Source: Methylovorus glucosotrophus (lineage in GTDB: Bacteria > Pseudomonadota > Gammaproteobacteria > Burkholderiales > Methylophilaceae). Taken from it: a stretch of 64,000 nt of DNA. Numbering within the stretch: position 1 is the first letter of the stretch; every line of letters starts with the position of its first letter. The notes under the pieces were generated by a model. It was not told the DNA's origin and did not search any database. It saw nothing but the letters and a program-made list of their open reading frames with translations. The position numbers and the translations under genes are program-made. The stretch lies in the NCBI RefSeq assembly GCF_009858335.1, contig NZ_VMSE01000001.1, positions 1,302,001-1,366,000 on the forward strand, in the 5' to 3' direction. Positions 1,707 to 32,886 of the stretch are shown here, in pieces.

Positions 1707-2618
1707 TTACGCCTTATTTTGAGGTTTGCGTGATGTGACGCTTATCACGCCACTCAGCACGATGATGGCCACGGCGAACCAGCGATCCAGCGAAAGCATC
1801 TCCCCCCAGATCACGATGCCAAACACGCTGGCGAGGACAACCGTGCTGTAAGCCAGGCTGCCGACGACCAGGGGATTGCCCGTGCGATAAGCCCGCGTCA
1901 GGGCAAGCTGGGCAATGGTGGCCGACACTCCTAGCCCGATCAGGAGTAACAGATCATCCCACTCAACGCGATGAAAGTCGTGGACCAGCATCCATATGCC
2001 ACCACCCAGTGTGCACACCAGCGTGAAATAGAACACAGTACGCCAGTCGGGTTCGCCGGCGCGGCCCAACTGGGTTACGTGGATATACACAATCCCCGCC
2101 AATGCGCCTGACAGCAGGCCCAATGCACCCGCAATCAGCTCATCCACATGCAGGCTGGGCTTGAGCAATAAGGTGACCCCAACAAACCCGAGCGCTATTG
2201 CGACGAACAGGGTTTTGCGGAATTTTTCTCCTAGATAAAACGGGGCAAGCGCTGCCATGAAAAGCGGCGAGGTGTAATTCAGGGTGATGGCGGTTGCCAG
2301 GGGGAGTTCACTGATGGCGTAGAAAAACAGCAGCAGGGAGATAAACCCCAGTACCGCACGCCACATGTGTTTGCTGAGCAAGGGGGTGGCGAGGGATTGC
2401 TTGCGTATGCGCGTCAGGCCGTAAATAAACACCAGGCCGAAGAACGAGCGGTAGAACACGAGTTCGGCGCTACTGAATTTTTGCGCACCAAGCTTGACCA
2501 GCACCCCCATGATGGCAAAGAAGAACGCTGCCACCAGCATCCACAGGCTACCCAGCCGCCATTGCCTGATCAGGCGGAAAAGATTCACAGATGAGGGTCT
2601 AACTGTTTGCGCATCCAC
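1707..2618 (-). CDS. DMT-superfamily (EamA-type) permease
   Basis: A 303-residue integral membrane protein with about ten hydrophobic segments arranged as two EamA repeats; the first begins near residue 25 (LWMLVAAFFFAIMGVLVKLG). The YTSPLF motif in the fourth segment of the first repeat and an ALTRAYRTG motif in the second repeat are typical of drug/metabolite exporters. The predicted start lies inside the end of the upstream Rieske oxygenase gene (34 bp overlap), so the two are likely co-transcribed. A later ATG at the first membrane segment is possible but would cost the cytoplasmic leader. Substrate unknown; export of a product of the oxygenase is speculation. Confidence 0.88.
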   Translation of the reverse strand: MDAQTVRPSSVNLFRLIRQWRLGSLWMLVAAFFFAIMGVLVKLGAQKFSSAELVFYRSFFGLVFIYGLTRIRKQSLATPLLSKHMWRAVLGFISLLLFFYAISELPLATAITLNYTSPLFMAALAPFYLGEKFRKTLFVAIALGFVGVTLLLKPSLHVDELIAGALGLLSGALAGIVYIHVTQLGRAGEPDWRTVFYFTLVCTLGGGIWMLVHDFHRVEWDDLLLLIGLGVSATIAQLALTRAYRTGNPLVVGSLAYSTVVLASVFGIVIWGEMLSLDRWFAVAIIVLSGVISVTSRKPQNKA

Positions 2619-3688
2619 AGGTGGAAGTGCTCAAGCCCGGTTTCCATGGGGTGTTGATAAGGGCCATGTTCATCCAGGCCCTGAGCAAACAGGGCGCGGC
2701 GACCGTCGTGCATGCGTTGGCAGATTTCCTTGTCCTCAATCGCGGTCTCATTGTAGGCCGCCTGCTGGGCTTCCACGTATTCGCGCTCAAACAAGGCAAT
2801 ATCTTCCGGGTAGTAAAATTCCACCACATTGGTGCATGCATCCACCCCGCGAGGAATGAGGTGCGACACGACGAGCACATTCGGGTACCACTCGATCATC
2901 AGGAAGGGGTAATACACCATCCAGATGGCGCCATACTTGGGTGCGGATTGTTCGCCATACTGCAATACCTGTTGCTGCCAGCGCTGATAGGTGGGGGAGC
3001 CGGATTTTTGCAGCGAATGCTTTACGCCTACGGTTTGTACGCTGTACCAGTCGCCAAACTCCCAGTTCAGCTGTTCACAGTCCACAAACTTGTCCAGCCC
3101 GGGGTGGAGCGGCCCGACATGGTAGTCCTCCAGATAAACCTCGATAAAGGTTTTCCAGTTGAAGGCATATTCTTCCACCATCACGCGGTCCAGCATGTAA
3201 CTCGTAAAATCAAAATCCTGCTTGCAGCCCAATTGGCGCAGGTCGCGGGCTATATCCCGTGGGCTGTCAAACAGCAGACCTTGCCATTGCTGAAGTGGGG
3301 TCTTGTTCAGGTGCAAACACGGGTTATCAGGAAAATGCGGTGCGCCCAGCAGCTCGCCTTTGAGGTTATAAGTCCAGCGGTGCAATGGGCAGACAATGTG
3401 CTGCGTGTTGCCACGGCCATTCAGCATGATGGCCTGCCGGTGGCGGCAGACGTTGCTGATCAGTTCAATGCCATTCTGATTGTGTACCAGCGCGCGGCCT
3501 TCCTGCATCCAGTCCAGGGTGTGATAGTCGCCAGGGTGTGGCGCCATGAGCTCGTGCCCTACGTATTGGGGCGCATGTGCAAACAGCACTTTCTGTTCAA
3601 GCTTGTAAATCTCGGGGTCGGTATACCAGGCAATCGGCAGCTGGGAAACAGTTGGCCGGGGCAAATTGACGGAGACAAGGGAAGCCAT
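2585..3688 (-). CDS. Rieske-type ring-hydroxylating oxygenase, alpha subunit-like
   Basis: A 367-residue oxygenase with the Rieske [2Fe-2S] motif in its N-terminal third (VCRHRQ ... CPLHRW, a C-x-H-x16-C-x2-H arrangement) and the mononuclear iron site in the C-terminal SRPBCC domain, where EDYHVGPLH supplies the two histidines and the bridging acid. A candidate third ligand lies in the helix around EDKEICQRMHDGRR. The layout resembles choline/carnitine monooxygenase-like oxygenases more than the large aromatic dioxygenases, but the substrate cannot be predicted. No reductase or ferredoxin gene is adjacent, so electrons must come from elsewhere. The gene overlaps the downstream DMT permease by 34 bp. 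Confidence 0.88.
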   Translation of the reverse strand: MASLVSVNLPRPTVSQLPIAWYTDPEIYKLEQKVLFAHAPQYVGHELMAPHPGDYHTLDWMQEGRALVHNQNGIELISNVCRHRQAIMLNGRGNTQHIVCPLHRWTYNLKGELLGAPHFPDNPCLHLNKTPLQQWQGLLFDSPRDIARDLRQLGCKQDFDFTSYMLDRVMVEEYAFNWKTFIEVYLEDYHVGPLHPGLDKFVDCEQLNWEFGDWYSVQTVGVKHSLQKSGSPTYQRWQQQVLQYGEQSAPKYGAIWMVYYPFLMIEWYPNVLVVSHLIPRGVDACTNVVEFYYPEDIALFEREYVEAQQAAYNETAIEDKEICQRMHDGRRALFAQGLDEHGPYQHPMETGLEHFHLWMRKQLDPHL

Positions 3689-19226: not shown

Positions 19227-20415
19227 TATGCCTGACGACAGAGGCCATTTTGGTCCGTACGGCGGGATTTTTGTCGCAGAAACTCTGGTGGAAGCCCTGG
19301 AAGAATTGCGTGTCATGTATGAGCGCTTTCGCCATGACCCTGAATTTCTGGCCGAATTTGCACATGATCTGAAGTATTTTGTAGGCCGTCCAAGCCCTAT
19401 CTACTACGCCAAGCGCTGGTCTGAACGCGTTGGCGGTGCTCGCATTTATCTCAAGCGGGAAGATCTGAACCACACTGGCGCCCATAAGGTGAATAACACC
19501 GTGGGGCAAGCACTCCTGGCAAAACGCATGGGCAAGCCACGCGTAATCGCTGAAACGGGGGCAGGGCAGCATGGCGTTGCGACGGCTACCATTGCAGCTC
19601 GTATGGGGCTGGAGTGTGTCGTGTACATGGGTTCTGAGGATGTGAAGCGCCAGGCTCCCAATGTCTATCGCATGAAGCTGTTGGGCGCGACCGTCGTGCC
19701 GGTGGAAAGTGGTTCAAAAACCCTCAAGGATGCGCTGAATGAAGCCATGCGCGACTGGGTAACCAACATCTCCAACACCTTTTACATTATTGGTACCGTG
19801 GCTGGCCCGCACCCTTATCCCATGATGGTACGGGATTTTCAGGCGGTGATTGGTGTAGAAGCCAAGCAGCAAATGCAGGAAATGATCGGGCGTCAGCCAG
19901 ATGCGGTCGTGGCCTGTGTGGGCGGCGGTTCCAATGCCATGGGTATTTTCTACCCCTATATCAACGAAGAAAATGTGCGCCTGATCGGCGTTGAGGCAGC
20001 GGGCCTGGGTCTGGCAACAGGCAAACACGCCGCGCCACTGACAGCCAATAGCTCAGTCGGCGTATTGCATGGCAACCGTACTTATCTGATGCAGGACGAA
20101 GACGGTCAAATCATCGAAACGCATTCGATCTCTGCTGGCCTGGATTATCCAGGAGTGGGGCCTGAGCATGCATGGCTGAAAGACAGCAAGCGTGCTGAAT
20201 ACGTGGCCATTACCGATGATGAAGCCATGGCGGCTTTCCATAGTCTGTGCCGCACCGAAGGTATTATTCCTGCACTGGAATCCAGCCATGCGTTGGCGTA
20301 TGCAGAAAAGATGGCGGCGACCATGTCTCCCGACCAGGTCATTCTGGTGAACCTCTCCGGTCGTGGCGATAAAGATATCAACACGGTGGCCGGTTTGTCT
20401 GGCATTACCCTTTAA
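19213..20415 (+). CDS. trpB: Tryptophan synthase beta subunit
   Basis: A 400-residue PLP enzyme condensing indole with serine. The PLP lysine is K92 in [10 protein letters not shown], the phosphate loop is [10 protein letters not shown], and it starts with the usual [15 protein letters not shown]. The ATG at 19213 has a GAGGAG ribosome-binding site inside the end of trpF; upstream in-frame codons lie within trpF and are unlikely starts. It works with TrpA encoded 25 bp downstream. Confidence 0.97.
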
Positions 20416-20440
20416 TCATCCAGTATTTAAGATCCCATTC

Positions 20441-21241
20441 ATGTCTCGCATAAAAACCACGTTCGATCAGCTCAAACAGCAGGGAAAGAAAGCTCTGATC
20501 CCTTACATTACCGCTGGTGACCCTCATCCTGACCAAACCGTAAAGCTGTTACATGCCATGGTGGCAAACGGTGCCGATATGATTGAGCTCGGCGTGCCTT
20601 TTTCAGATCCCATGGCAGATGGTCCCGTTATTCAGCGCGCCAGCGAGCGCGCCTTGGTCCATCACGTTGGCCTCAGCCGCGTGCTCGACATCGTGCGTGA
20701 ATTCCGTCAGCAGGATAATGTGACGCCTATCATACTGATGGGTTACGCTAATCCGGTTGAAGCAATGGGGCAGGAGAAGTTTTCTGACCGAGCCAAAGCC
20801 GCCGGTGTGGATGGTGTACTGACGGTGGATTATCCGCCTGAGGAATGCAAGGAATTCACCGCCCTGTTGCAGGCACGCGGCATTGACCCCATTTTTCTGT
20901 TATCACCGACCACCGAGCCTGCTCGTGTAGAGGTGATTGTGAACCAGGCCAGCGGCTTCGTTTACTATGTCTCCCTCAAGGGGGTGACGGGTGCTAAAAA
21001 CCTCGATATTGAAGAGGTGGCGCAAAAAGTAGCTGAAATTCGAACCCTGACGGATTTGCCTGTAGGCGTAGGTTTTGGTGTGCGTGATGCGGCGACAGCA
21101 ACGGCTGTGGCTGCGATTGGTGATGCTGTGGTGGTGGGCAGCCGTATGGTGCAGGCTGTGGAACAATCCAATGATCAAAATCTCGTTGATAACGTGGCTG
21201 CGCTGATGAAAGAATTGCGCATCGCGGTTGACGCTGCTTAA
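20441..21241 (+). CDS. trpA: Tryptophan synthase alpha subunit
   Basis: A 266-residue TIM-barrel protein that cleaves indole-3-glycerol phosphate and channels indole to TrpB. It shows IPYITAGDPHP, the catalytic glutamate in MIELGVPFSDPMADGP, and the aspartate in GVDGVLTVDYPPEE. The start at 20441 matches the usual N-terminus SRIKTTFDQLK; in-frame codons upstream fall in trpB. Confidence 0.96.
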   Translation: MSRIKTTFDQLKQQGKKALIPYITAGDPHPDQTVKLLHAMVANGADMIELGVPFSDPMADGPVIQRASERALVHHVGLSRVLDIVREFRQQDNVTPIILMGYANPVEAMGQEKFSDRAKAAGVDGVLTVDYPPEECKEFTALLQARGIDPIFLLSPTTEPARVEVIVNQASGFVYYVSLKGVTGAKNLDIEEVAQKVAEIRTLTDLPVGVGFGVRDAATATAVAAIGDAVVVGSRMVQAVEQSNDQNLVDNVAALMKELRIAVDAA

Positions 21242-21253
21242 AAAGGACATGCC

Positions 21254-22120
21254 ATGAGCTGGTTACAAAAACTACTTCCTCCCAAGATCAATCGCCCGAC
21301 GGGCATTAATAAAAAAACCGTACCAGAAGGTCTCTGGAGCAAATGCCCTTCGTGTGAATCCGTGCTGTATCGGACGGATCTCGAAAAGAATGCTGAAGTT
21401 TGTCCCAAGTGCGGCTATCACAACCGTATTTCAGCGCGTGCCCGTTTGGCCATGCTGCTGGACGAGGAGGGGCGCTCCGAAATCGGCGCCGAAGTGCAGC
21501 CTGTAGACCCGCTGAAGTTCAAGGATAGCAAACGCTATGCTGACCGCATCAAGTCATCCCAGGCAGATGTGGGTGAAACCGATTCCCTGATCGTGTTGCA
21601 AGGCAGCATCAAGGCTGTTCCTGTGGTAGCCGCTGCGTTTGAGTTCAAGTTCATGGGTGGTTCCATGGGTTCGGTGGTGGGTGAGCGCTTTGTGCGCGGC
21701 GTCAACGCTGCCATTGAGCGTCGCTCGGCGTTCGTATGCATTTCCGCCAGTGGCGGCGCCCGTATGCAAGAAGGCCTGTTTTCACTGATGCAAATGGCGA
21801 AAACCAGCGCTGCCTTAACTGCGCTTGGCCGCGCCGGTTTGCCTTATATTTCAGTGTTGACGGATCCAACCATGGGTGGCGTTTCTGCCAGTTTTGCCAT
21901 GCTGGGCGATGTGATTGTGGCCGAACCGCAGGCGCTGATTGGCTTTGCCGGTCCACGCGTGATCGAACAAACCGTTCGCGAAACCCTGCCTGAAGGTTTC
22001 CAGCGGGCGGAATTCCTGCTGGAACATGGCGCGGTGGATATCATTGTTGACCGCCGTGAAATGCGTGACAAGCTGGCCAACCTGATCAGTAGCATGACCA
22101 AATTACCTGCTGTTGCCTGA
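21254..22120 (+). CDS. accD: Acetyl-CoA carboxylase carboxyltransferase beta subunit
   Basis: A 288-residue subunit of the carboxyltransferase making malonyl-CoA. It carries the N-terminal four-cysteine zinc ribbon (CPSCESVLY ... CPKCGYHN, about residues 35-60) and the crotonase-like core with [11 protein letters not shown] and [13 protein letters not shown]. Length is normal. The trpFBA-accD-folC order is common in beta- and gammaproteobacteria. Confidence 0.97.
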
Positions 22121-22132
22121 TTCCATCGTATT

Positions 22133-23425
22133 GTGACTGATCTTTCAACGCCGCCTGACTCGTTGCAGGGCTGGCTGCAATACATTGAAGCGTTACATCC
22201 CAAGTCCATTGCCATGGGCCTGGAGCGTGTGCAGGCGGTGAGGCAGCGCCTTGATCTGCCCCTTGATTTCGTGGTCATTACTGTCGCCGGCACCAATGGC
22301 AAAGGATCCACCTGCGCCATGCTGGAGCAGGTCTATCTGCAGGCAGGCTATCGCGTAGGCTGTTATACATCCCCCCACATTCTGCGGTACAACGAGCGGG
22401 TTCGCATCATGGGCCGTGAGGCTGCGGATGCGGATCTTTGTGCTGCATTTGCCCGCGTTGAAGAGGCTCGTGGCGACACGGCATTGACGTACTTCGAGTT
22501 TGGTACCCTGGCCGCCTTGTGCTGTTTTTGTCAGCATGCACTGGATGTCGTGATTCTTGAAGTTGGTCTGGGCGGACGGCTTGATGCCGTGAATGTTGTC
22601 GATGCCGATGTTGCCATCGTTACCAGTATTGATCTGGATCATATGGATTATCTCGGCGATAACCGGGAAAGCATCGGTTTCGAGAAAGCTGGCGTCTATC
22701 GTGCTGGCCGTGCCGCCATTTGTGCAGATGCATCTCCGCCAGCAACCTTGCTGAAACACGCCGAGACCATCCAGGCTGAACTGCTCTGTATTCATCGTGA
22801 TTTTCACTACCAGGTGCAATCTGGGCGCTGGCATTACCAGTGGGCGGATTTCACCTTGCATGACTTGCCTTTGCCAGCATTGGCAGGGGATTTTCAGCTT
22901 TCCAATGCTTCCGCTGTATTGACGGCGATTCAATCGCTGCATGACAAACTGCCGGTGAATGCTGAGGCAATTCACGCCGGCTTGCAGCATGTGAATCTCG
23001 CTGGGCGCTTTGACGTGCGACAGTCTGCACCCAGTGTCATTCTCGATGTGGCGCATAACCCTCATGCGGCTACTGCGCTGGCCTCCAACCTGAATGCACA
23101 GGCGAATGCCGGTCGAACCCTGGCGGTTTTTGCCATGCTGGCGGATAAGGATATCCCCGGTGTAGTAGCGGCCGTACACGCCACGGTGCATGCCTGGTAT
23201 CTGGCAGATATTCCTCAGATTCGGGGTGCCAAAGCCATTCAACTGCAAGAAGCCGTGACCGAAATTGACCCCGACGTTCCTGTGCATGTATACCGAACGG
23301 TGGCAGAAGCCTACAGGCAAGCCTGTATAGATGCAGGCGAAAATGATAGAATTATTGTATTCGGATCATTTTTCACCGTGGCTGATGTCATGCAGCTTTT
23401 ACCCGCGTCACCTGATAACCACTAG
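22133..23425 (+). CDS. folC: Bifunctional folylpolyglutamate/dihydrofolate synthase
   Basis: A 430-residue Mur-ligase-type enzyme adding glutamate to dihydropteroate and folates. The P-loop is GTNGKGSTCAML (about residues 49-60), followed by YTSPHILRYNERVRI and the EVGLGGRLDAVN magnesium/omega-loop region. It uses a GTG start 12 bp after accD. Normal length. Confidence 0.93.
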   Translation: MTDLSTPPDSLQGWLQYIEALHPKSIAMGLERVQAVRQRLDLPLDFVVITVAGTNGKGSTCAMLEQVYLQAGYRVGCYTSPHILRYNERVRIMGREAADADLCAAFARVEEARGDTALTYFEFGTLAALCCFCQHALDVVILEVGLGGRLDAVNVVDADVAIVTSIDLDHMDYLGDNRESIGFEKAGVYRAGRAAICADASPPATLLKHAETIQAELLCIHRDFHYQVQSGRWHYQWADFTLHDLPLPALAGDFQLSNASAVLTAIQSLHDKLPVNAEAIHAGLQHVNLAGRFDVRQSAPSVILDVAHNPHAATALASNLNAQANAGRTLAVFAMLADKDIPGVVAAVHATVHAWYLADIPQIRGAKAIQLQEAVTEIDPDVPVHVYRTVAEAYRQACIDAGENDRIIVFGSFFTVADVMQLLPASPDNH

Positions 23426-23437
23426 GATGTTTTACCC

Positions 23438-24181
23438 ATGGCCTCTGATAATTTGAACGAGCAGGAAATTCAATTCAAGAAGCGTGCTCGTAGACGGCTG
23501 GTTGGTGCAGTTGCGCTCGTATTGCTGATGGTAACGGTCTTGCCCATGCTGCTTGATGATCGTGCCAGCAAGGCTCCACAACAAGAAATTGCCATTTCCA
23601 TTCCTAGCCAGGATAGCGAATTTAACTCCAAGATTGTTCCGGTCAAGCCCGAAGCCACGGCGACTACCGAGCAATCCGGCTCTGCCATTCCAGAAGATCA
23701 ACCCGTTACTGAACCTGAATCAACGGGCGAAATTGCACCGCTGTCCCCACCTATTGAGTCGCGTGCCGAGCCTGTTGCCCCAGCCAAGCCTGCAGCAGCC
23801 AAGCCTGCGGCTACTCCATCTCCTGTTAAAACAGCGCCTTCGACTGCAGTGGCAAAACCTTCCGAAGCCGTCAAACCTGCTGAAACCAAGCCTGCAGAAA
23901 GCAAACCCGTTGCCGCAGAGGTTGCGAGAAAAGATTCCTCTGAAAAAGTCGCAGGCTTTCTGGTGCAAGTCGGTGTGTTCTCCGATCCCGATAACGTGAA
24001 GCAGCTGCAACAGAAGCTGGCAGGCCTGGGCATTAAATCCAATACTGAAAAGCTGGATACCCCTAAAGGCCCTAAAATCCGGTTGCGCAGCCAGCTATAT
24101 TCCACTCGTCCACAAGCCGAGCAGGCGCTGGACAAGATCAAGGGTGCAGGGTTGACCGGCATGGTGGTCACCAGCAAGTGA
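23438..24181 (+). CDS. SPOR-domain protein (DedD-like)
   Basis: A 247-residue bitopic membrane protein: a short basic cytoplasmic head (KKRARRRLV), one membrane span (about 22-40), a long periplasmic linker rich in Pro, Ala, Lys and Glu with repeated KPAETKPAES-like units, and a C-terminal SPOR domain (about 166-245, starting GFLVQVGVFSDPDNVKQLQ). SPOR domains bind denuded septal peptidoglycan, so a role at the division site is likely. Its place between folC and cvpA is that of dedD in E. coli. Confidence 0.87.
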   Translation: MASDNLNEQEIQFKKRARRRLVGAVALVLLMVTVLPMLLDDRASKAPQQEIAISIPSQDSEFNSKIVPVKPEATATTEQSGSAIPEDQPVTEPESTGEIAPLSPPIESRAEPVAPAKPAAAKPAATPSPVKTAPSTAVAKPSEAVKPAETKPAESKPVAAEVARKDSSEKVAGFLVQVGVFSDPDNVKQLQQKLAGLGIKSNTEKLDTPKGPKIRLRSQLYSTRPQAEQALDKIKGAGLTGMVVTSK

Positions 24182-24194
24182 GGGGTTATCCCTT

Positions 24195-24686
24195 ATGACA
24201 GTATTTGACTATGCCGTGCTCGGCATACTGGGGCTTTCGGTATTATTGAGCGTCATGCGCGGTTTTGTACGGGAAGTTCTGGCCCTGGCTGGTTGGGTAG
24301 CTGCTTTTTTCGTTGCCAAGCTTTACACCATGGAGCTGGCACCCTTATTACCTGAGGCAATTCCGTCAGAGGCCTTGCGTTTTCTGGCAGCGTTCCTCAT
24401 ATTGTTTTTAGCTACCTTGCTGTTATGCAGCCTGCTGGCTATTGTGCTGGGGCAATTATTCAAGACAGTCGGCCTCGGGTGGCTGGATCGCGCACTTGGC
24501 GCGGTATTTGGTTTGTTACGTGGTGTGCTGATATTGCTCGTGCTGGTTTTTCTGGCCGGCCTGACCAGCGTGCCCAAGGATGAAAGGTGGCGCAATGCGA
24601 TGTTCAGTGCGCCATTGGAAGCCATGGTGGTCAGCTTGTTGCCATGGCTTCCGCAAGATATTACTAAGCATGTCAAGTACGATTGA
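24195..24686 (+). CDS. cvpA: CvpA-family membrane protein
   Basis: A 163-residue protein with four hydrophobic spans (about 5-25, 28-48, 65-88 and 102-122). The N-terminal VFDYAVLGILGLSVLLSVMRG and the GLGWLDRALGAVFGLLRG segment are typical of CvpA, named for colicin V production in E. coli and implicated in envelope homeostasis. It lies directly upstream of purF, the standard gene order. Confidence 0.9.
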   Translation: MTVFDYAVLGILGLSVLLSVMRGFVREVLALAGWVAAFFVAKLYTMELAPLLPEAIPSEALRFLAAFLILFLATLLLCSLLAIVLGQLFKTVGLGWLDRALGAVFGLLRGVLILLVLVFLAGLTSVPKDERWRNAMFSAPLEAMVVSLLPWLPQDITKHVKYD

Positions 24687-24756
24687 AGAACCATTTGCGG
24701 TATACACAGTCGTACGCGCTTCATCGGAATTCTCGTTTTTTTAAGGTGCTCACTCC

Positions 24757-26295
24757 ATGTGTGGAATCATAGGCGTTGTCGGTAAAAACCCGGTCAATCA
24801 GTTGCTTTACGACGGATTGCTGGTTCTGCAACACCGCGGGCAGGATGCGGCGGGTATTGTCACTTGCGATGGCAATACGTTCTACATGCACAAGAATAAC
24901 GGCCTGGTGCAGGATGTTTTCCAGACGCGCCACATGCGCAGCCTGCAAGGCAATGCCGGTATCGCCCATGTGCGCTACCCCACGGCGGGTTCTTCATCAG
25001 CCGCCGAAGCCCAGCCTTTCTATGTGAACTCTCCTTTTGGCATCGTGCTGGGTCACAACGGTAACCTGACCAACTCCACGCAGCTGAAGGAAGAAATGTT
25101 CCGTCAGGATCTGCGCCACATCAACACGAGTTCCGATTCCGAAGTGCTGCTGAACGTGCTCGCTCATGAAATTGAGCACACCGCGCATAGCGCAGTGCTG
25201 AACAGTGACATGATCTTTGAAGCGGTCGCTGGCGTGCACAAGCGTTGCCTAGGTGCGTATGCCGTCGTGGCAATGGTGGCCAACTTTGGCCTGCTGGCTT
25301 TCCGTGATCCCAATGGGATTCGGCCTCTGGTCATCGGCAAGTCCGAAACAGAGAAGGGCGTTGAATACATCGTCGCTTCTGAAAGTGTGGCGCTGGATGT
25401 GCTGGGTTTCAAACTGGTACGCGATGTTGAGCCGGGCGAGGCTATTTTCATTGATATGGATGGCAATTTCTTCTCCCGCCAATGTGCTGAAAAGCCCAAA
25501 CTCTCCCCTTGTATTTTTGAATATGTGTATCTGGCACGTCCTGACTCTGTTATCGACAAGGTATCTGTCTACCAGACTCGTCTGCATATGGGCGTTAGCC
25601 TTGCCAAGAAAATCGCCAAGGAGTGGGGTGATCTGCATATTGACGTGGTAATTCCTATCCCCGATACCAGTCGGCCCAGTGCCCTGCAATTGGCGAATGC
25701 CTTGAATCTCACCTACAGAGAAGGCTTTATCAAGAATCGCTATATTGGCCGTACCTTTATCATGCCAGGTCAGGCATTGCGCAAAAAATCCGTACGCCAG
25801 AAGCTGAATCCGATCGGCATGGAGTTCAAGGGCAAGAATGTATTGCTTGTGGATGACTCCATTGTGCGTGGCACCACCTCCAAGCAGATCGTGCAGATGG
25901 CCCGCGATGCAGGTGCCAATAAAGTGTATTTTGCCTCTGCTGCACCACCTGTACGTTTCCCTAACGTCTATGGCATTGATATGCCGACCCGCGATGAATT
26001 GCTAGCCACTGGCCGTACCGATCAGCAGATCTGCGAAGAAATTGGTGCGGATGCCTTGATTTATCAGGATCTGGATGCGCTGATTGAAGCCGTCCAATTA
26101 AGCAATCCGGACATCAAGATGTTTGATTGCTCCTGTTTTGATGGGAATTATGTCACTGGCGATATCGACGAAACGTACCTCAATAACGTTGAAAGTGCGC
26201 GTGGCGATAAGCTGGGTCACAAGAAGCCTGCTAACTCCAGCACCCAGTTGGACCTCAATCTGGTGACTATCAAGGAATACGAGGAAGCTGTATAG
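24757..26295 (+). CDS. purF: Amidophosphoribosyltransferase
   Basis: A 512-residue enzyme catalysing the first step of purine synthesis (PRPP + glutamine to phosphoribosylamine). The class II glutaminase nucleophile is Cys2 directly after the initiator Met (CGIIGVVG), so no propeptide is present. The PRPP-binding loop is [13 protein letters not shown] in the C-terminal half. Length matches the E. coli-type enzyme. An AAGGTG ribosome-binding sequence precedes the ATG. Confidence 0.97.
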
Positions 26296-26353
26296 ACATG
26301 AACCTGACAGCGGTGTTGGCCTTGACCACTACCGCTTGCAGGCATATCATGAA

Positions 26354-26420
26354 CTTGCGCCGATTTGAGCTTAATTCATTTAACTCAGCTTGCGGGCGCC
26401 TTATAAATTCAGCTAAAGCG
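26354..26420 (+). promoter_or_regulatory. SAM-II-type riboswitch aptamer upstream of metZ
   Basis: The leader of metZ contains, in order, the elements of a SAM-II (SAM_alpha) aptamer as I recall its consensus: a P1 stem (GCGCC 26357-26361 with GGCGC 26395-26399), the segment GATTTG directly after the 5' arm, CTTGC just before the 3' arm, then TTATAAA and GCTAAAG in the 3' tail that would form the pseudoknot. The P1 loop holds an extra hairpin (TGAG-C-TTAA / TTAACTCA). SAM-II elements are known in front of metA, metX and metZ, mainly in alphaproteobacteria, where SAM binding lowers expression. The pseudoknot pairing itself is the least clear part. Confidence 0.82.
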
Positions 26421-26427
26421 AGTGCAT

Positions 26428-26463
26428 AAACCCGTTTTAGCGCCAGCTATCACGGGTTTTTTT
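26428..26463 (+). terminator. Riboswitch-controlled terminator before metZ
   Basis: Arms AAACCCG (26428-26434) and CGGGTTT (26453-26459) form a 7-bp hairpin followed by four more T. An alternative helix pairs GCTAAAGCG of the aptamer tail (26412-26420) with CGTTTTAGC (26433-26441), nine pairs including one G-T. It overlaps the terminator's 5' arm, so the two folds exclude each other. With SAM bound the tail is held in the aptamer and the terminator can form. This is inferred from sequence. Confidence 0.85.
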
Positions 26464-26506
26464 ATGCTCGGCGCTGGTTTGTTCTTGGCGTAGAAAGGAA
26501 ATAACA

Positions 26507-27676
26507 ATGACACAAGATTGGCATGCAGAAACCTTGGGGGTGCGTGCAGGCAGCGAGCACACGGAATTTGGTGAGAACTCCGAGGCTATATTTCTTACTT
26601 CCAGCTTTGTTTTTGAAAATGCAGCCCAGGCGGCTGCACGCTTTGGTGGGCAAGAGCCAGGCAATATCTATTCGCGGTTTACCAACCCCACCGTCACCAT
26701 GTTTCAGAACAAGCTGGCAGCGCTGGAAGGCGCGGAGTTATGCGTAGCTACCTCGTCTGGCATGGCCGCTATTCTGGCAACCGTGATGGGCTTATGCTCG
26801 GCGGGCGATCATGTCGTAGCATCGCGCAGCATTTTTGGTACTTCGGTGCAATTGTTCAGCAATATCCTCAAACGCTGGGGGCTGGAGACTACCTTCGTTT
26901 CGCTGACCGAGCCGGATGAATGGCGTGCTGCCGTCAAGCCAAACACCAAATTGTTTTTTGTGGAAACGCCGTCTAACCCACTGACGGAAGTGTGCGACAT
27001 TACTCTGCTGGCCGGGATCGCCCATGAAGCCGGAGCCTTGCTGGCCGTGGACAATTGTTTCTGCACGCCTGCCTTGCAGAAGCCTTTGGCGCTTGGGGCT
27101 GATATCGTGATTCACTCTGCTACCAAATACATAGACGGGCAGGGGCGTTGCTTGGGCGGTGCTGTGTTGGGGCGCCGTGATGTGCTGGAGCCGGTATATG
27201 GCTTCCTGCGTACCGCCGGTCCGACCATGAGTGCATTTAATGCCTGGGTATTTCTGAAAGGCCTGGAGACGCTGCATGTGCGCATGGCCGCCCACGTGCA
27301 AAATGCCCTGGCCCTCGCCACCTGGCTGGAGCAGCAACCGGCGGTTGCCCGGGTGTACTACCCTGGTCTGCCGTCGCATCCGCAGCATGCGCTGGCCATG
27401 CGCCAGCAAAGCGGTGGTGGTGCTATCGTGTCATTTGAACTCAAAGGTGGCAAGGATGCCGCCTGGGGCTTGATTGATGCTACCCGCCTAATTTCCATTA
27501 CGGCCAACCTGGGGGATGCAAAAAGCACGATTACGCATCCTGCGACCACGACACACAGTCGCGTGAGTCCGGAAGCGCGCGCTGCCGCAGGCATTGGCGA
27601 TGGACTGGTACGCATTGCCGTAGGTCTGGAACACATTGAGGACTTGAAGGCAGATCTTCTATTGCTAACGCGCTAG
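26507..27676 (+). CDS. metZ: O-succinylhomoserine sulfhydrylase
   Basis: A 389-residue PLP enzyme of the Cys/Met metabolism family that makes homocysteine directly from an activated homoserine and sulfide. The PLP lysine is K207 in HSATKYIDGQG; N-terminal YSRFTNPTVTMF and C-terminal THSRVSPEARAAAGI segments fit the MetZ branch. The protein starts MTQDWHAETLGVRAG, with an AAAGGAAA ribosome-binding site. Control by the SAM-responsive leader fits a methionine gene. It would draw sulfide from the cys operon located about 20 kb downstream. Confidence 0.93.
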   Translation: MTQDWHAETLGVRAGSEHTEFGENSEAIFLTSSFVFENAAQAAARFGGQEPGNIYSRFTNPTVTMFQNKLAALEGAELCVATSSGMAAILATVMGLCSAGDHVVASRSIFGTSVQLFSNILKRWGLETTFVSLTEPDEWRAAVKPNTKLFFVETPSNPLTEVCDITLLAGIAHEAGALLAVDNCFCTPALQKPLALGADIVIHSATKYIDGQGRCLGGAVLGRRDVLEPVYGFLRTAGPTMSAFNAWVFLKGLETLHVRMAAHVQNALALATWLEQQPAVARVYYPGLPSHPQHALAMRQQSGGGAIVSFELKGGKDAAWGLIDATRLISITANLGDAKSTITHPATTTHSRVSPEARAAAGIGDGLVRIAVGLEHIEDLKADLLLLTR

Positions 27677-27782
27677 TCGGCGTGAATATTGGCAGATAGC
27701 CATATTGGCCCAGCACTTTTTTAATTGCCGTTAGTCACACAGTCGTAGGTTGGTATCCAATAACAATATGGGAGTCATTAGC

Positions 27783-28067
27783 ATGAGTTTGAAAGACGAA
27801 TATTTGGAAAAGCTGAAGCTGCAACTGGATGAGTGGTCAGCCGATATTGATGTGCTGGAAGCTAAGGCCCGCAAGGCTGAAGCGGAATTGCGGATCAAAT
27901 ATGAGCAGCAGATCGAGGCCTTGAAGGCAAAGCGTGAGGAAGCCAAGATCCGCGTTGGCGAGGTCAAGGAGTCCGCAGGCGAAGCTTGGCAGGAGCTGAA
28001 GAAGGGTGGCGATGCGGCATGGGAAAACATACGCAAAGCCTTTGAAGAAGCGCGCAAGAAGTTTTGA
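27783..28067 (+). CDS. Small coiled-coil protein
   Basis: A 94-residue, highly charged protein predicted to be almost entirely helical: long runs of Lys/Glu/Ala with heptad-like hydrophobic spacing (KLKLQLDEWSADIDVLEAKARK) and a distinct C-terminal part WQELKKGGDAAWENIRKAF. No cysteine, signal peptide or membrane span. The start at 27783 is chosen because the upstream in-frame codons lack a ribosome-binding site, while GGGAGTCATTAGC precedes this ATG. It is followed 40 bp later by the DUF3185-type membrane protein. Function unknown. Confidence 0.75.
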   Translation: MSLKDEYLEKLKLQLDEWSADIDVLEAKARKAEAELRIKYEQQIEALKAKREEAKIRVGEVKESAGEAWQELKKGGDAAWENIRKAFEEARKKF

Positions 28068-28107
28068 GGCAAGTCATTCCACGTTTAACTAGAAGAAAGG
28101 AATCCAC

Positions 28108-28329
28108 ATGAAATCCTCTGTCGTAGTTGGTCTGATATTGATTGCCTTGGGTGTAGCGGCGCTGGTGTATAAAAACATCAGCTACTCGTCCGAGGAGACC
28201 GTGATGCAGATTGGCCCCGTGAAGGCCACGGCTGAAACTGAAAAGAATATCCCCATCCCGAATGTGCTGGGTATTGTGGCGATAGTGGCTGGCGTCGTGG
28301 TGATTGCGGTAGGTGGTCGCGGCAAATAA
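28108..28329 (+). CDS. DUF3185-type small membrane protein
   Basis: A 73-residue protein with two hydrophobic spans (about 5-22 and 51-68) and a polar loop between them (SSEETVMQIGPVKATAETEK). The VGLILIALGVAALVYKNISYSS opening and the closing IVAGVVVIAVGGR resemble the DUF3185 family. An AGAAAGGAATCC ribosome-binding site precedes the ATG. It is the last gene before a strong bidirectional terminator. Function unknown. Confidence 0.78.
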   Translation: MKSSVVVGLILIALGVAALVYKNISYSSEETVMQIGPVKATAETEKNIPIPNVLGIVAIVAGVVVIAVGGRGK

Positions 28330-28358
28330 GCTGCAGGGTTCTGTATCTTCAGGATGTG

Positions 28359-28394
28359 AAAAGCAAAAAGGGGCGGTTGCCCCTTTTTGCTTTT
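28359..28394. terminator. Bidirectional rho-independent terminator
   Basis: A 16-bp perfect hairpin (AAAAGCAAAAAGGGGC, loop GGTT, GCCCCTTTTTGCTTTT) lies between the convergent DUF3185-type and peroxiredoxin genes. T-rich ends on both strands let it serve both. Confidence 0.93.
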
Positions 28395-28433
28395 ATGGCG
28401 GGCAGAGTATCTGCCCGATAGTGTTGCCGTGCT

Positions 28434-29036
28434 TTAGAGCGAAGCGGCGTTATCGGCCAGATATTTGGCGACGCCTTCAGGAGAAGCGTCCATGCCTGCC
28501 TTGCCTTTTTTCCAGCCGGCAGGGCAGACTTCGCCATGCTCTTCAAAGAATTGCAGCGCATCGGCAATGCGCAGTGTTTCATCAATATCACGGCCCAGAG
28601 GCAGGTCGTTCACTACCTGATTCACTACAATACCTTGCTTGTTGATGAGGAAGGTGCCGCGGTAAGCCACGCCACCGTCAGCCTCTACGTCGTAAGCCTT
28701 GGCGATTTCATGCTTGATATCCGCGACCATGGGGTAGCCAACCTTGCCAATGCCGCCTTTTTCCACTGGGGTATTTTTCCATGCCAGATGGGTGAAGTGA
28801 GAGTCGATGGAAACACCGATCACTTCAATACCACGTTTCTTGAATTCATCCAGACGGTGATCAAACGCAATCAGTTCGGAAGGGCAAACAAAGGTGAAGT
28901 CCAGAGGCCAGAAGAAGATGACCGCGGCCTTGCCCTTGATGTAGCTTGCCAGATTGAAGTCTTCTTTGATCGTATTGTCACCGAGCACGGCAGCAGCAGT
29001 AAAATCGGGGGCGGGTTTGCCAACAAGTACGGCCAT
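28434..29036 (-). CDS. Typical 2-Cys peroxiredoxin (AhpC/Prx1 type)
   Basis: A 200-residue thiol peroxidase reducing hydrogen and alkyl peroxides. The peroxidatic cysteine is C51 in DFTFVCPSE, and the resolving cysteine is C171 in GEVCPAGW, near the C-terminus as in typical 2-Cys enzymes. The GGVAYRGTFLINKQG segment corresponds to the GLALRGTF region. No ahpF is adjacent, so the reductant is probably thioredoxin or an enzyme encoded elsewhere. An AAAGGAGAT ribosome-binding site precedes the ATG. Confidence 0.93.
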   Translation of the reverse strand: MAVLVGKPAPDFTAAAVLGDNTIKEDFNLASYIKGKAAVIFFWPLDFTFVCPSELIAFDHRLDEFKKRGIEVIGVSIDSHFTHLAWKNTPVEKGGIGKVGYPMVADIKHEIAKAYDVEADGGVAYRGTFLINKQGIVVNQVVNDLPLGRDIDETLRIADALQFFEEHGEVCPAGWKKGKAGMDASPEGVAKYLADNAASL

Positions 29037-29235
29037 ATTGATCTCCTTTTTGATGAGTAAATAAAAAATTCTAACAGCGTGCCAGACTACACCGCAAATG
29101 AAGAATTGGATAGCGCCATCACCTTCTGCAGCAATGGCCGGATGCTGTGATGGACGCGGCTTAAAGAGGCATGCCCTGCGTGGCTTATCGTGTTAAAATC
29201 GGGGTCTTTACAGCCACTTTACGCCGATAGCCCAC

Positions 29236-31782
29236 ATGGATCAGTTCGCAAAAGAAACCCTCCCTATCAGCCTCGAAGACGAGATGCGCCGTTCCTACCT
29301 CGATTACGCCATGAGCGTGATCGTGGGACGTGCACTACCAGACGTTCGTGATGGCCTGAAGCCCGTGCACCGTCGTGTGCTTTTTGCCATGCACGAGCTG
29401 AGTAACGACTGGAATCGTCCTTATAAAAAGTCTGCCCGTATCGTCGGCGACGTCATCGGTAAATACCACCCTCACGGGGATACTGCCGTGTACGACACTA
29501 TCGTGCGTATGGCCCAGGATTTCTCCTTGCGCTACATGCTGGTCGATGGTCAGGGTAACTTTGGTTCGGTGGATGGCGATAATGCCGCGGCCATGCGGTA
29601 CACCGAAATCCGGATGGCGAAGATTGCGCATGAACTGCTTGCCGATATCGACAAGGAAACCGTCGACTTTGGCCCCAACTACGATGGCTCTGAGCACGAA
29701 CCGCTCATCATGCCAGCGCGTATTCCGAATCTGCTGATCAATGGCAGCTCCGGTATTGCCGTGGGTATGGCAACCAATATTCCGCCGCATAACCTCAATG
29801 AAGTGGTCGATGCCTGTCTGGTCTTGCTGAAAAATCCAGAAACCACGGTGGATGAGCTGATTGACATCATCCCCGCGCCGGATTTTCCTACCGCAGGCAT
29901 TATCTACGGCACGCTGGGTGTCAAGGAAGGCTACCGTACAGGCCGTGGCCGTGTGGTCATGCGCGGCCGCACCCATGTGGAAGACATGGAAAAGGGCAAC
30001 CGTCAGGCGCTGATCATTGATGAACTGCCTTACCAGGTCAATAAAAAGACCCTGATCGAAAAAATTGCCGAGCTGGTCAACGACAAGAAGATTGAAGGCA
30101 TTTCCGATCTGCGTGACGAGTCTGACAAGTCCGGCATGCGCGTGGTAATCGAGCTCAAGCGCGGCGAGGTTCCGGAAGTTATCCTGAACAATCTGTACAA
30201 GCAGACCCAACTGCAAGACACCTTCGGCATGAATATGGTGGCATTGCTGGATGGTCAGCCACGCCTGCTGAATCTGAAGCAGATGCTGGAAGCCTTCTTG
30301 CGCCATCGTCGCGAGGTCATTACCCGCCGTACCGTTTACGAACTGCGCAAGGCACGCGAGCGCGGCCATGTGCTGGAAGGCCTTGCCGTCGCACTGGCCA
30401 ACGTGGATGAAATGATTGCCTTGATCAAGGCTGCGCCTACGCCGCCAGAAGCCAAGAAGTCACTGATGGCTCGCACCTGGGTTTCGCCTGTGGTGGAGGA
30501 GATGCTGAAGCGTGCCGCCATGGAAGCTTCGCGCCCTGATGGCTTGTCGGTCGACTTTGGCATGACACCGAATGGCTATCGCTTGTCGGATGTCCAAGCC
30601 CAGGAAATCCTGCAGATGCGTCTGCAACGCCTGACTGGTCTGGAGCAGGACAAGATCGTCAATGAATACAAGGAGGTGATGGATGTCATCGCTGACTTGC
30701 TCGATATCCTGGCCAAGCCCGAGCGTGTGACGCAAATGATCGTGGATGAACTGGCCGCTATCCGCCAGCAGTTCGGCGATGAGCGCCGCAGCGAGATTGT
30801 GCACAACGCACAGGATTTATCGCTGGAAGACCTGATCACCCCGCAGGATGTGGTGGTGACACTGTCGCATACAGGTTATGTGAAGTCGCAACCGCTGGAT
30901 GAGTATCGTGCCCAGCGCCGTGGTGGTCGTGGCAAGCAGGCCACCGCTACCAAGGAAGACGATTTCATCGACAAGATGTTCGTGGCCAATACTCACGATT
31001 ACATTCTGTGCTTCTCCAGCCGTGGTCGCGTTTACTGGCTCAAGGTTTACGAAGTGCCTCAAGGCAGCCGCATCAGCCGTGGCAAGCCTATCGTTAACCT
31101 GTTCCCACTGGAAGATGGCGAGAAGATCAATGCCATCCTGCCCGTGAAAGAGTTCGACGAAAATCACTTTATCTTCATGGCAACGGCCCAGGGTACTGTG
31201 AAAAAGACCGCACTGGTCGAGTTCTCCAACCCGCGTCGCGCTGGCATTATCGCCATCAACCTGGATGACGGTGACTACCTGATTGGCGCTGAGGTGACCA
31301 ATGGTGCCAACGACATCGTGCTGGTATCCAATGGCGGCAAGGCGGTATGGTTCGACGAAGAGGATGTACGCGCCATGGGCCGCAACACGCGTGGCGTGCG
31401 CGGCATGAAGCTGATGGCCAAGCAGCGCGTGATCTCGCTGCTGATTGCCGAGGATGACAAGCAAACGGTACTGGTCGCCACTGAAAACGGTTACGGCAAA
31501 CGTACTGTGCTGTCCGACTTCCGTCACTCTGGTCGCGGCACGCAGGGTGTCAAGGCCATTGCTACCAGCGAGCGCAATGGCAGCGTAGTCGCTGCGCGTC
31601 TGGTAAGTGATGAAGATGAAATCATGCTCATCACCACTGGTGGTGTGCTGATCCGTACCCGCGTCAAGGAAATCCGTGAGCTGGGCCGTGCCACCCAAGG
31701 CGTCACCCTGATCAATCTGGGTGAAAATGAAAAACTGTCTGGCCTCGAAAAAGTGGTCGAGACTGATGATGCCGATGAATAA
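29236..31782 (+). CDS. gyrA: DNA gyrase subunit A
   Basis: An 848-residue type II topoisomerase subunit. The winged-helix region holds [14 protein letters not shown], with Thr83 and Asp87 at the quinolone-determining positions (E. coli numbering coincides), and the DNA-cleaving tyrosine is Y122 in [10 protein letters not shown]. The C-terminal half carries the beta-pinwheel repeats and the GyrA box QRRGGRGKQ (about residue 558-566), which distinguishes gyrase from ParC. Length is normal. It heads a gyrA-serC-pheA cluster and has a 199-bp upstream region in which no clear promoter stands out. Confidence 0.97.
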
Positions 31783-31803
31783 CTAAAAAGTTGGGGGCAG
31801 GGA

Positions 31804-32886
31804 ATGACGCAGATCTATAATTTTTCGGCAGGGCCTGCGGTATTGCCCAAGGAAGTGCTGCAGCAGGCCGCAGCTGAAATGCTGGACTGGCACGGTTCCG
31901 GCATGTCCGTCATGGAAATGTCGCACCGCGGCAAGGAATTCATGTCCATCGCGGCGGAAGCGGAAGCAGATTTACGGGAATTGCTGGCCATCCCTGCCAA
32001 TTACAAGGTGCTGTTTTTGCAGGGCGGGGCGCATGCGCAGTTCACCATGATCCCGCTCAATCTGTTGAGAAACAAGAAAGCGGCAGATTACATCGACACT
32101 GGCATCTGGTCGCAAAAAGCCATTGCAGAAGCTCGCAAGTATTGCGAGGTCAATGTGGCGGCTTCTTCGGCTGACCATAATTACACCTATGCCCCCGAGC
32201 AGAGTGCGTGGAAGCTGGATCCGGATGCGGCTTATGTGCATTACACCTCCAATGAAACCATTGGCGGCGTTGAAATATTCTGGACTCCCGAGACCGGAGA
32301 TGTCCCTCTCGTTTGCGATATGTCGTCGCATATTCTTTCCCGCCCGATTGATGTCAGCCGCTATGGCCTGATCTATGCGGGCGCACAAAAAAACATCGGA
32401 CCTGCCGGATTAACCATTGTCATCGTCCGCGAAGACCTGATTGGCGAGACCTTGCCTGGCACGCCAACGATGTTGGACTACAAGATTCACGCCGATAATG
32501 ACTCCATGTACAACACGCCACCTACCTATGGCATTTACATAGCGGGTCTGGTGTTCAAATGGCTGAAAGCCAATGGTGGCCTGGCGGCCATGGAACAGCT
32601 CAATATTCGCAAGGCTGCCATGCTGTACGATTACATCGCCAGTTCCAGCCTTTATGTTTCACCGATTGCGCCTGACAACCGCTCGCGCATGAACGTGCCA
32701 TTCACTCTGCGCAACACTGCCCTGGATGCGGAATTTCTCAAGCAGGCGCAGCAGCGCGGCCTGTTACAGCTGAAGGGCCACAAGCTGGTTGGTGGCATGC
32801 GGGCGTCGATATACAACGCTATGCCCATCGAAGGCGTGCAGGCATTGGTGAGTTTTATGCAAGAATTTGAGCGTGCGCAAGGCTAG
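31804..32886 (+). CDS. serC: Phosphoserine aminotransferase
   Basis: A 360-residue class V PLP aminotransferase making 3-phosphoserine (and acting in pyridoxine synthesis in many bacteria). It starts [16 protein letters not shown], has the PLP lysine K196 in [12 protein letters not shown], and [11 protein letters not shown] near the C-terminus. It begins 21 bp after gyrA; the gyrA-serC-pheA order is widespread in beta- and gammaproteobacteria. Confidence 0.97.

Follow-up and report, generated by a model that had tools for sequence, protein, structure and literature searches.

A putative SAM-II riboswitch variant with an extra L1 hairpin in the metZ leader of Methylovorus glucosotrophus

The stretch of Methylovorus glucosotrophus DNA analysed here (64 kb; hereafter, the window) raises the question of whether metZ is controlled in this methylotroph by a SAM-II riboswitch acting on transcription termination, as an initial annotation made from the sequence had proposed. 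The gene upstream of the leader, purF (amidophosphoribosyltransferase; 24757-26295, plus strand), was assigned with NCBIfam TIGR01134 (541.4 bits, cut-off 350), and the controlled gene, metZ (O-succinylhomoserine sulfhydrylase; 26507-27676, plus strand), with NCBIfam NF006003 (713.9 bits, cut-off 522). The leader between them (26322-26463, plus strand) encompasses a promoter, a SAM-II core, a nine-pair antiterminator and an intrinsic terminator. Sequence and comparative evidence point to this leader being a SAM-II riboswitch variant that controls metZ by termination, a reading to which we assign a probability of roughly 90%.

Promoter, aptamer core and conservation

Every feature of the leader described here is on the plus strand. 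Its sigma-70-type promoter (TTGACC-17-TATCAT; 26322-26350) matches the consensus at 10 of 12 positions, with its -10 element ending 6 nt before the P1 stem. Promoter scores of at least 8 out of 12 were obtained for 92 of 110 distinct Methylophilaceae upstream stretches, compared with 25 of 110 shuffled ones, and in 88 of those 92 the -10 element ends 6-8 nt 5' of P1.

The SAM-II parts listed in the initial annotation (P1, GATTTG, CTTGC, TTATAAA and GCTAAAG) are all present, on the strand and at the place it gave. The P1 5' strand GCGCC (26357-26361) pairs with GGCGC (26395-26399), and the window element lacks the outermost possible pair, T26356/C26400. The stem is followed on its loop side by GATTT (26362-26366, reading GATTTG from 26362), the L1 strand of the putative SAM pocket, a role that we take to hold from the residue and contact mapping of SAM-II and SAM-V structures. 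The P1 loop ends in AGC-TTGC, where TTGC (26390-26393, within CTTGC at 26389-26393) supplies the GC predicted to form P2b with the GC of GCTAAA. After P1 come the A-rich linker L3, TTATAAA (26401-26407), and then GCTAAAGCGAGT (26412-26423), which opens with GCTAAA (26412-26417; GCTAAAG from 26412), the P2b 3' strand and a further part of the putative pocket. Among elements with an L1 of at least 14 nt (long-loop elements), three A positions of the linker are kept in 81/81 and the fourth in 79/81. The element hence presents the P1 and P2 pseudoknot layout of SAM-II and its pocket letters (GAUUU, UUGC and GCUAAA), these letters being also the search motif used for relatives. The P2b letters are invariant among relatives and belong to that motif, as does GCTAAA, whose conservation is therefore partly by construction.

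A strict element pattern was found in 142 of 187 Methylophilaceae genomes, once per genome, with no match for the reversed pattern; it was absent from 19 of 119 good-quality genomes of the family. The named loci number at least 119, and 17 of 119 listed gave no element under the requirements of the extraction script and were left out of all element counts. A script that needed four P1 pairs, a limited loop length, a limited linker and enough sequence extracted 229 distinct elements from the fetched loci, 117 from Methylophilaceae and 112 from elsewhere. The shuffle rates given below for the antiterminator pairing refer to an earlier grouping of 110 and 119, after which seven Methylophilaceae elements from named records were moved from the others into the family.

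Since the script demanded four P1 pairs in all 229 distinct elements, only pairs outside those four constitute evidence for the stem. The loop-side end pair of P1 is formed in 218 of 221 elements (shuffle mean 199.4, maximum 208) and the outer end pair in 165 of 221 (mean 108.1, maximum 130), both above chance under shuffles that ignore the relatedness of the elements. The next pair outward is formed in 39 of 221 elements, below its shuffle mean of 70.6, indicating that the stem ends at the outer pair; a P1 of more than six pairs was accordingly rejected.

A metZ homologue lies downstream of 116 of the 117 distinct Methylophilaceae elements, the exception (L111) being cut by the end of its locus, and the element thus sits upstream of methionine genes, as SAM-II does. 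Outside this family, a metZ homologue follows 30 of the 112 elements among the loci listed, and the downstream genes of two others (L082 and L089) look MetX-like by eye. The parts of the element, their conservation, the promoter and the metZ link are all supported by sequence and comparison with relatives.

Several observations were made beyond the family. SAM-II-like elements occur as two copies with a spacing of 111-112 nt in four records, three of Halomonas and one gammaproteobacterial (L053, L090, L103 and L146), the second copy in L146 preceding an ORF that reads like MetK, and a search of the class returned matches 111-113 nt apart in three genomes (G294, G328 and G418). A Gallionella locus (L051) carries a SAM-II-like element with P1 GGGGG/CCCCC upstream of metK (2149-3048, minus strand; NCBIfam TIGR01034); AGGAG directly follows GCTAAA in this element, which may therefore act on translation. 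A search for this form of the element in 250 genomes of the order found none. The motif also occurs in four MAG records (L068, L081, L139 and L126), three of them labelled Acidimicrobiia and one Chloroflexi, and one genome in the class search (G457) presented ten matches to a SAM-II model built from alphaproteobacterial sequences.

Probable assignment to SAM-II

The covariance-model check put forward in the initial annotation went against it. The Rfam SAM_alpha model (RF00521) scored the window element at 15.8 bits (E 0.64), the best match of its genome and not significant against a cut-off of 36; at E up to 5 this model gave no match in 20000-32000, and an Rfam search of the 64-kb window at gathering score found nothing. 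SAM_alpha passed its cut-off in 3 of 61 genomes (G019, G052 and G057), searched with stricter filters under which weak matches are lost, and in 4 of 18 named loci: Zeimonas (52.0 bits), Bosea (37.8), a Bordetella MAG (37.7) and Novimethylophilus (36.9). The Novimethylophilus locus (L034) belongs to the Methylophilaceae, has no L1 hairpin and likewise carries its element between homologues of purF (84% identical) and metZ (81%). Relatives without the hairpin tend to score higher, so the low Rfam score of the window element is probably due to its L1 hairpin.

Alphaproteobacterial loci were scored with SAM_alpha as well, independently of the pattern used to gather them. Seven of the eight checked matched at E 0.0084 or better and one (L098) gave no match; only one of the eight exceeded the cut-off. 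Passed by only 3 of the 61 genomes and by one of the eight alphaproteobacterial loci, the SAM_alpha cut-off is strict, an annotation threshold rather than a defining trait. A second covariance model was built exclusively from 18 alphaproteobacterial SAM-II-like sequences. It gave the window element 50.4 bits, with E values of 1.4e-12 in the window and 6.4e-11 across the whole genome, where the next best match was at E 0.14; these scores are inflated, since the pattern used to collect the alphaproteobacterial sequences has core letters in common with the window element. At E up to 0.001 the same model matched 135 of the 274 genomes sampled from the class, also under stricter filters that lose weak matches. 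Homology to RF00521 is hence supported through orthologues over the cut-off and through the model of alphaproteobacterial sequences, and not by the element's own score; on this sequence evidence, the element can be retained as a probable SAM-II member.

The leader could also be read as a metXZ attenuator without a riboswitch, in which a protein or some other signal chooses between antiterminator and terminator. The section on metXZ in Leyn 2014 names no effector (PMC4239095), and SAM as ligand of the window element is itself deduced from sequence, but the core matches SAM-II in both sequence and layout, orthologues pass the Rfam SAM_alpha cut-off and the controlled genes are methionine genes, as with SAM-II. 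These lines of evidence make such an attenuator improbable and favour the riboswitch reading.

The L1 hairpin and the proposed termination switch

As noted in the initial annotation, the P1 loop of the window element holds an extra hairpin, GAG-C-TTAA-TTCAT-TTAA-CTC (26367-26386), which is weak (-1.5 kcal/mol). Its 3' side contains the P2a 5' strand ACTC (26383-26386), which pairs with GAGT (26420-26423), and the hairpin and P2a hence have a strand in common. Long loops are present in 96 of the 117 Methylophilaceae elements, 84 of them distinct in L1, linker and tail. In all 84 the foot of the hairpin keeps three standard pairs, which are GAG/CTC in 82, GAA/TTC in one (L019), a compensatory change, and include a G-U in another (L253). 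At least three contiguous P2a pairs are likewise formed in 84/84 of these elements, versus 31 of 124 short-loop elements, the P2a partner in long-loop elements being the GAG after GCTAAAGC; P2a reads TTC/GAA in L253, again compensatory, and includes a G-U in L019. One compensatory event each supports the foot of the L1 hairpin and the third pair of P2a, and the retention of both pairings in 84/84 indicates that one strand keeps two partners. In short-loop relatives, the second P2a pair is formed in 78 of 109 elements (shuffle mean 61.8), a count reached by 0 of 1000 shuffles; an extension of P2a past this pair was discarded for these relatives, pairing there being at or near chance. For the apical part of the L1 stem, an ungapped group of 31 elements presents a change from G-C to A-U at one pair in 10 rows, and a second pair changes from U-A to C-G in 6 rows and is unpaired in 10. 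Outside the Methylophilaceae, the long L1 of one betaproteobacterial MAG (L144) could form another hairpin, GTTGC/GCAAC, which may have been inserted independently.

In truncated transcripts, GCTAAAGCG (26412-26420) and CGTTTTAGC (26433-26441) fold together into the nine-pair antiterminator with one G-U that had been proposed initially, and this is the best fold of a transcript ending at 26448. The latter strand is also the upper 5' arm of an intrinsic terminator stem-loop (26428-26459; -16.6 kcal/mol, z -5.94) followed by a T run (26457-26463). The overlap claimed between antiterminator and terminator stands, the terminator being evident in the fold to 26470, but its 5' arm was drawn too short: it is more than AAACCCG and runs on through TTTTAGC (26428-26441), so that the antiterminator occupies all of its upper half. 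A simple terminator scan of 26200-26560 returned 0 sites, though the terminator fold is clear.

Stepwise folding of the growing transcript gave the antiterminator as the best structure at the tested lengths from 26443 to 26452 and the terminator from 26455, the switch falling at the same point whether or not the pseudoknot bases were prevented from pairing. The energy model thus has the terminator win once its 3' arm is out, even in the ligand-free state, which implies that antitermination would have to be kinetic, read-through presumably needing the antiterminator to persist while the polymerase passes.

The two structures were followed in the relatives. A terminator was called in 95 of 96 long-loop Methylophilaceae elements, and the sole exception (L258) is an artefact of the script, its terminator being visible by eye and in a direct fold (-12.4 kcal/mol). 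With the transcript cut at the terminator loop, at least five of the six GCTAAA bases pair downstream in 94 of the 95 long-loop elements with a called terminator. Among short-loop Methylophilaceae elements, 14 of 21 have a terminator and 7 of those 14 the antiterminator pairing, the corresponding counts outside the family being 85 of 112 and 31 of 85. Shuffle rates for the pairing are 24% for long-loop elements (on 90 of them, the groups being nearly the same), 16% for short-loop elements and 8% for the others. By class, as labelled in record titles, the pairing was found in 0 of 6 alphaproteobacterial, 10 of 17 gammaproteobacterial and 13 of 41 other named betaproteobacterial elements. The antiterminator as a general SAM-II trait is not supported by the counts outside the family (31 of 85, and 0 of 6 in alphaproteobacteria). 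Comparison with relatives therefore upholds, for the leader of metZ, both the proposed antiterminator/terminator switch and, as far as sequence can indicate, the assignment to a SAM-II-type element controlling this gene.

A SAM-II aptamer acting mainly on translation, with a constitutive terminator, has a precedent in the translational SAM-II reported for S. meliloti metA, where the downstream terminator is not predicted to be SAM-responsive (PMC9373788), and eight elements from streamlined Methylophilaceae are devoid of a credible terminator. In the window, however, 78 nt separate GCTAAA from the likely ribosome site (AGGA at 26496), and 94 of 95 long-loop elements retain the antiterminator pairing, leaving translational control with little likelihood. 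The eight elements are metZ leaders from one genus (g16; L014, L015, L197, L200, L202, L203, L204 and L211) with genomes of about 1.3 Mb; the terminators called for L014 and L015 are spurious, lying inside the coding region, and GAGGA is found closely 3' of GCTAAA, which may reflect a platform that has shifted from transcription to translation.

The leader is most probably an OFF switch of SAM-II type that acts on transcription, stopping that of metZ when SAM is plentiful. RNA polymerase would use the promoter immediately upstream and start at about 26357, so that the transcript would begin with the aptamer. At low SAM, GCUAAAGCG would be free as CGUUUUAGC emerges; the two would pair, occupying the 5' arm of the terminator, and metZ would be read. 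In the presence of SAM, the ligand would close the pseudoknot (P2b GC/GC and P2a ACUC/GAGU, with GAUUU as third strand), and with GCUAAAGCGAG held in this way CGUUUUAGC would join the terminator and transcription would end at the T run. The L1 hairpin and P2a use the same CUC, so opening of the hairpin foot would be part of pseudoknot closure. We tentatively entertain a two-layer switch in the Methylophilaceae, in which the hairpin competes with P2a for CUC and provides a ligand-free alternative fold within the aptamer, in addition to the antiterminator outside it; such an arrangement, which we consider possible rather than likely, would tune SAM affinity or folding speed.

The remaining alternative, an antisense sRNA of the Bp2_287 kind on the minus strand, is suggested by RF02424, which matches 26338-26462 on the minus strand (E 0.007) and, at E up to 5, lies antisense to the element in 12 of 20 relative loci, and by an RT-PCR product reported in Burkholderia (PMC3521395). 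It was rejected as highly improbable, given that the window match (27.4 bits) and all 12 relatives fall below the cut-off of 70, that the plus strand carries the promoter, the T run of the terminator, the pairing evidence and metZ downstream, and that the RF02424 consensus reads by eye as the complement of the SAM-II core.

Relation to known systems

SAM-II was defined in Corbino 2005, which noted promoters immediately upstream of P1 and terminators downstream of P2 and included Bordetella bronchiseptica in its alignment (PMC1273637). Barrick and Breaker 2007 describe SAM-II with terminators in alpha- and betaproteobacteria (PMC2258182), and Meyer 2009 gives Alpha-, Beta- and Gammaproteobacteria (PMC2704228). 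Leyn 2014 reports SAM_alpha only in Rhizobiales and Rhodobacterales, and presents metXZ as a new candidate RNA element of 35 betaproteobacterial genomes, kept apart from SAM_alpha and preceding metZ in three Methylophilales and two other species (PMC4239095). The novelty of a betaproteobacterial SAM-II, which the initial annotation held would be of interest, is weak, with Bordetella listed in 2005 (PMC1273637) and metXZ leaders in 2014 (PMC4239095). Among titles and abstract openings in the open-licence literature, neither an equation of metXZ with SAM-II nor a description of the L1 hairpin was found.

If the SAM-II reading is correct, the unassigned metXZ element of betaproteobacteria would gain a ligand, SAM, and Rfam RF02424 would seem to have been modelled on the wrong strand. 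SAM-II would also be widespread beyond the alphaproteobacteria and under-annotated, as suggested by the 135 of 274 genomes matched with the alphaproteobacterial model versus the 3 of 61, in a different and closer genome set, over the Rfam cut-off. The Methylophilaceae would furthermore provide a natural series before a single gene (short loop, hairpin loop and terminator apparently lost) for the study of riboswitch platform change.

The window element shares with SAM-II (RF00521; PMC1273637) the P1 and pseudoknot, the GAUUU, UUGC and GCUAAA letters, a promoter just 5' of P1, a terminator 3' and a downstream methionine gene. It differs in having a structured 20-nt L1 hairpin, with CUC common to P2a, where SAM-II has a short L1 loop, and in scoring 15.8 bits against 36. 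SAM-II with long loops (RF01726), listed for Bacteroidetes and marine samples in Weinberg 2010 (PMC2864571), has the same core with enlarged loops; searches with its model, of 20000-32000 at E up to 5 and of the window at cut-off, found nothing, and the relatives gave one weak match (L173, 22.7 bits against 44). SAM-V has a SAM pocket nearly that of SAM-II (PMC6061858), but is translational, with a 2-bp P2a and an extra P3, whereas the window element has a transcriptional terminator, and neither 20000-32000 nor the 20 relative loci matched the SAM-V model at E up to 5.

The agreement with metXZ (PMC4239095), compared by general features only, extends to the taxa, to metZ in three Methylophilales and to a betaproteobacterial metX/metZ leader with pseudoknotted conserved blocks followed by a terminator; metXZ was reported apart from SAM_alpha and is here tied to SAM-II, to which, judging from these sequence features, it very probably belongs. 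Bp2_287 (RF02424) occupies the same place in the leader, its source paper setting it by purF, metZ and metX and suggesting a cis-acting element of methionine metabolism (PMC3521395), but its model lies on the opposite strand and seems to represent the riboswitch complement. The SAM-II class, also in betaproteobacteria, was thus already known, and what appears to be new is the Methylophilaceae variant, in which an L1 hairpin and P2a share the CUC on the 3' side of the hairpin, together with the links to metXZ and Bp2_287.
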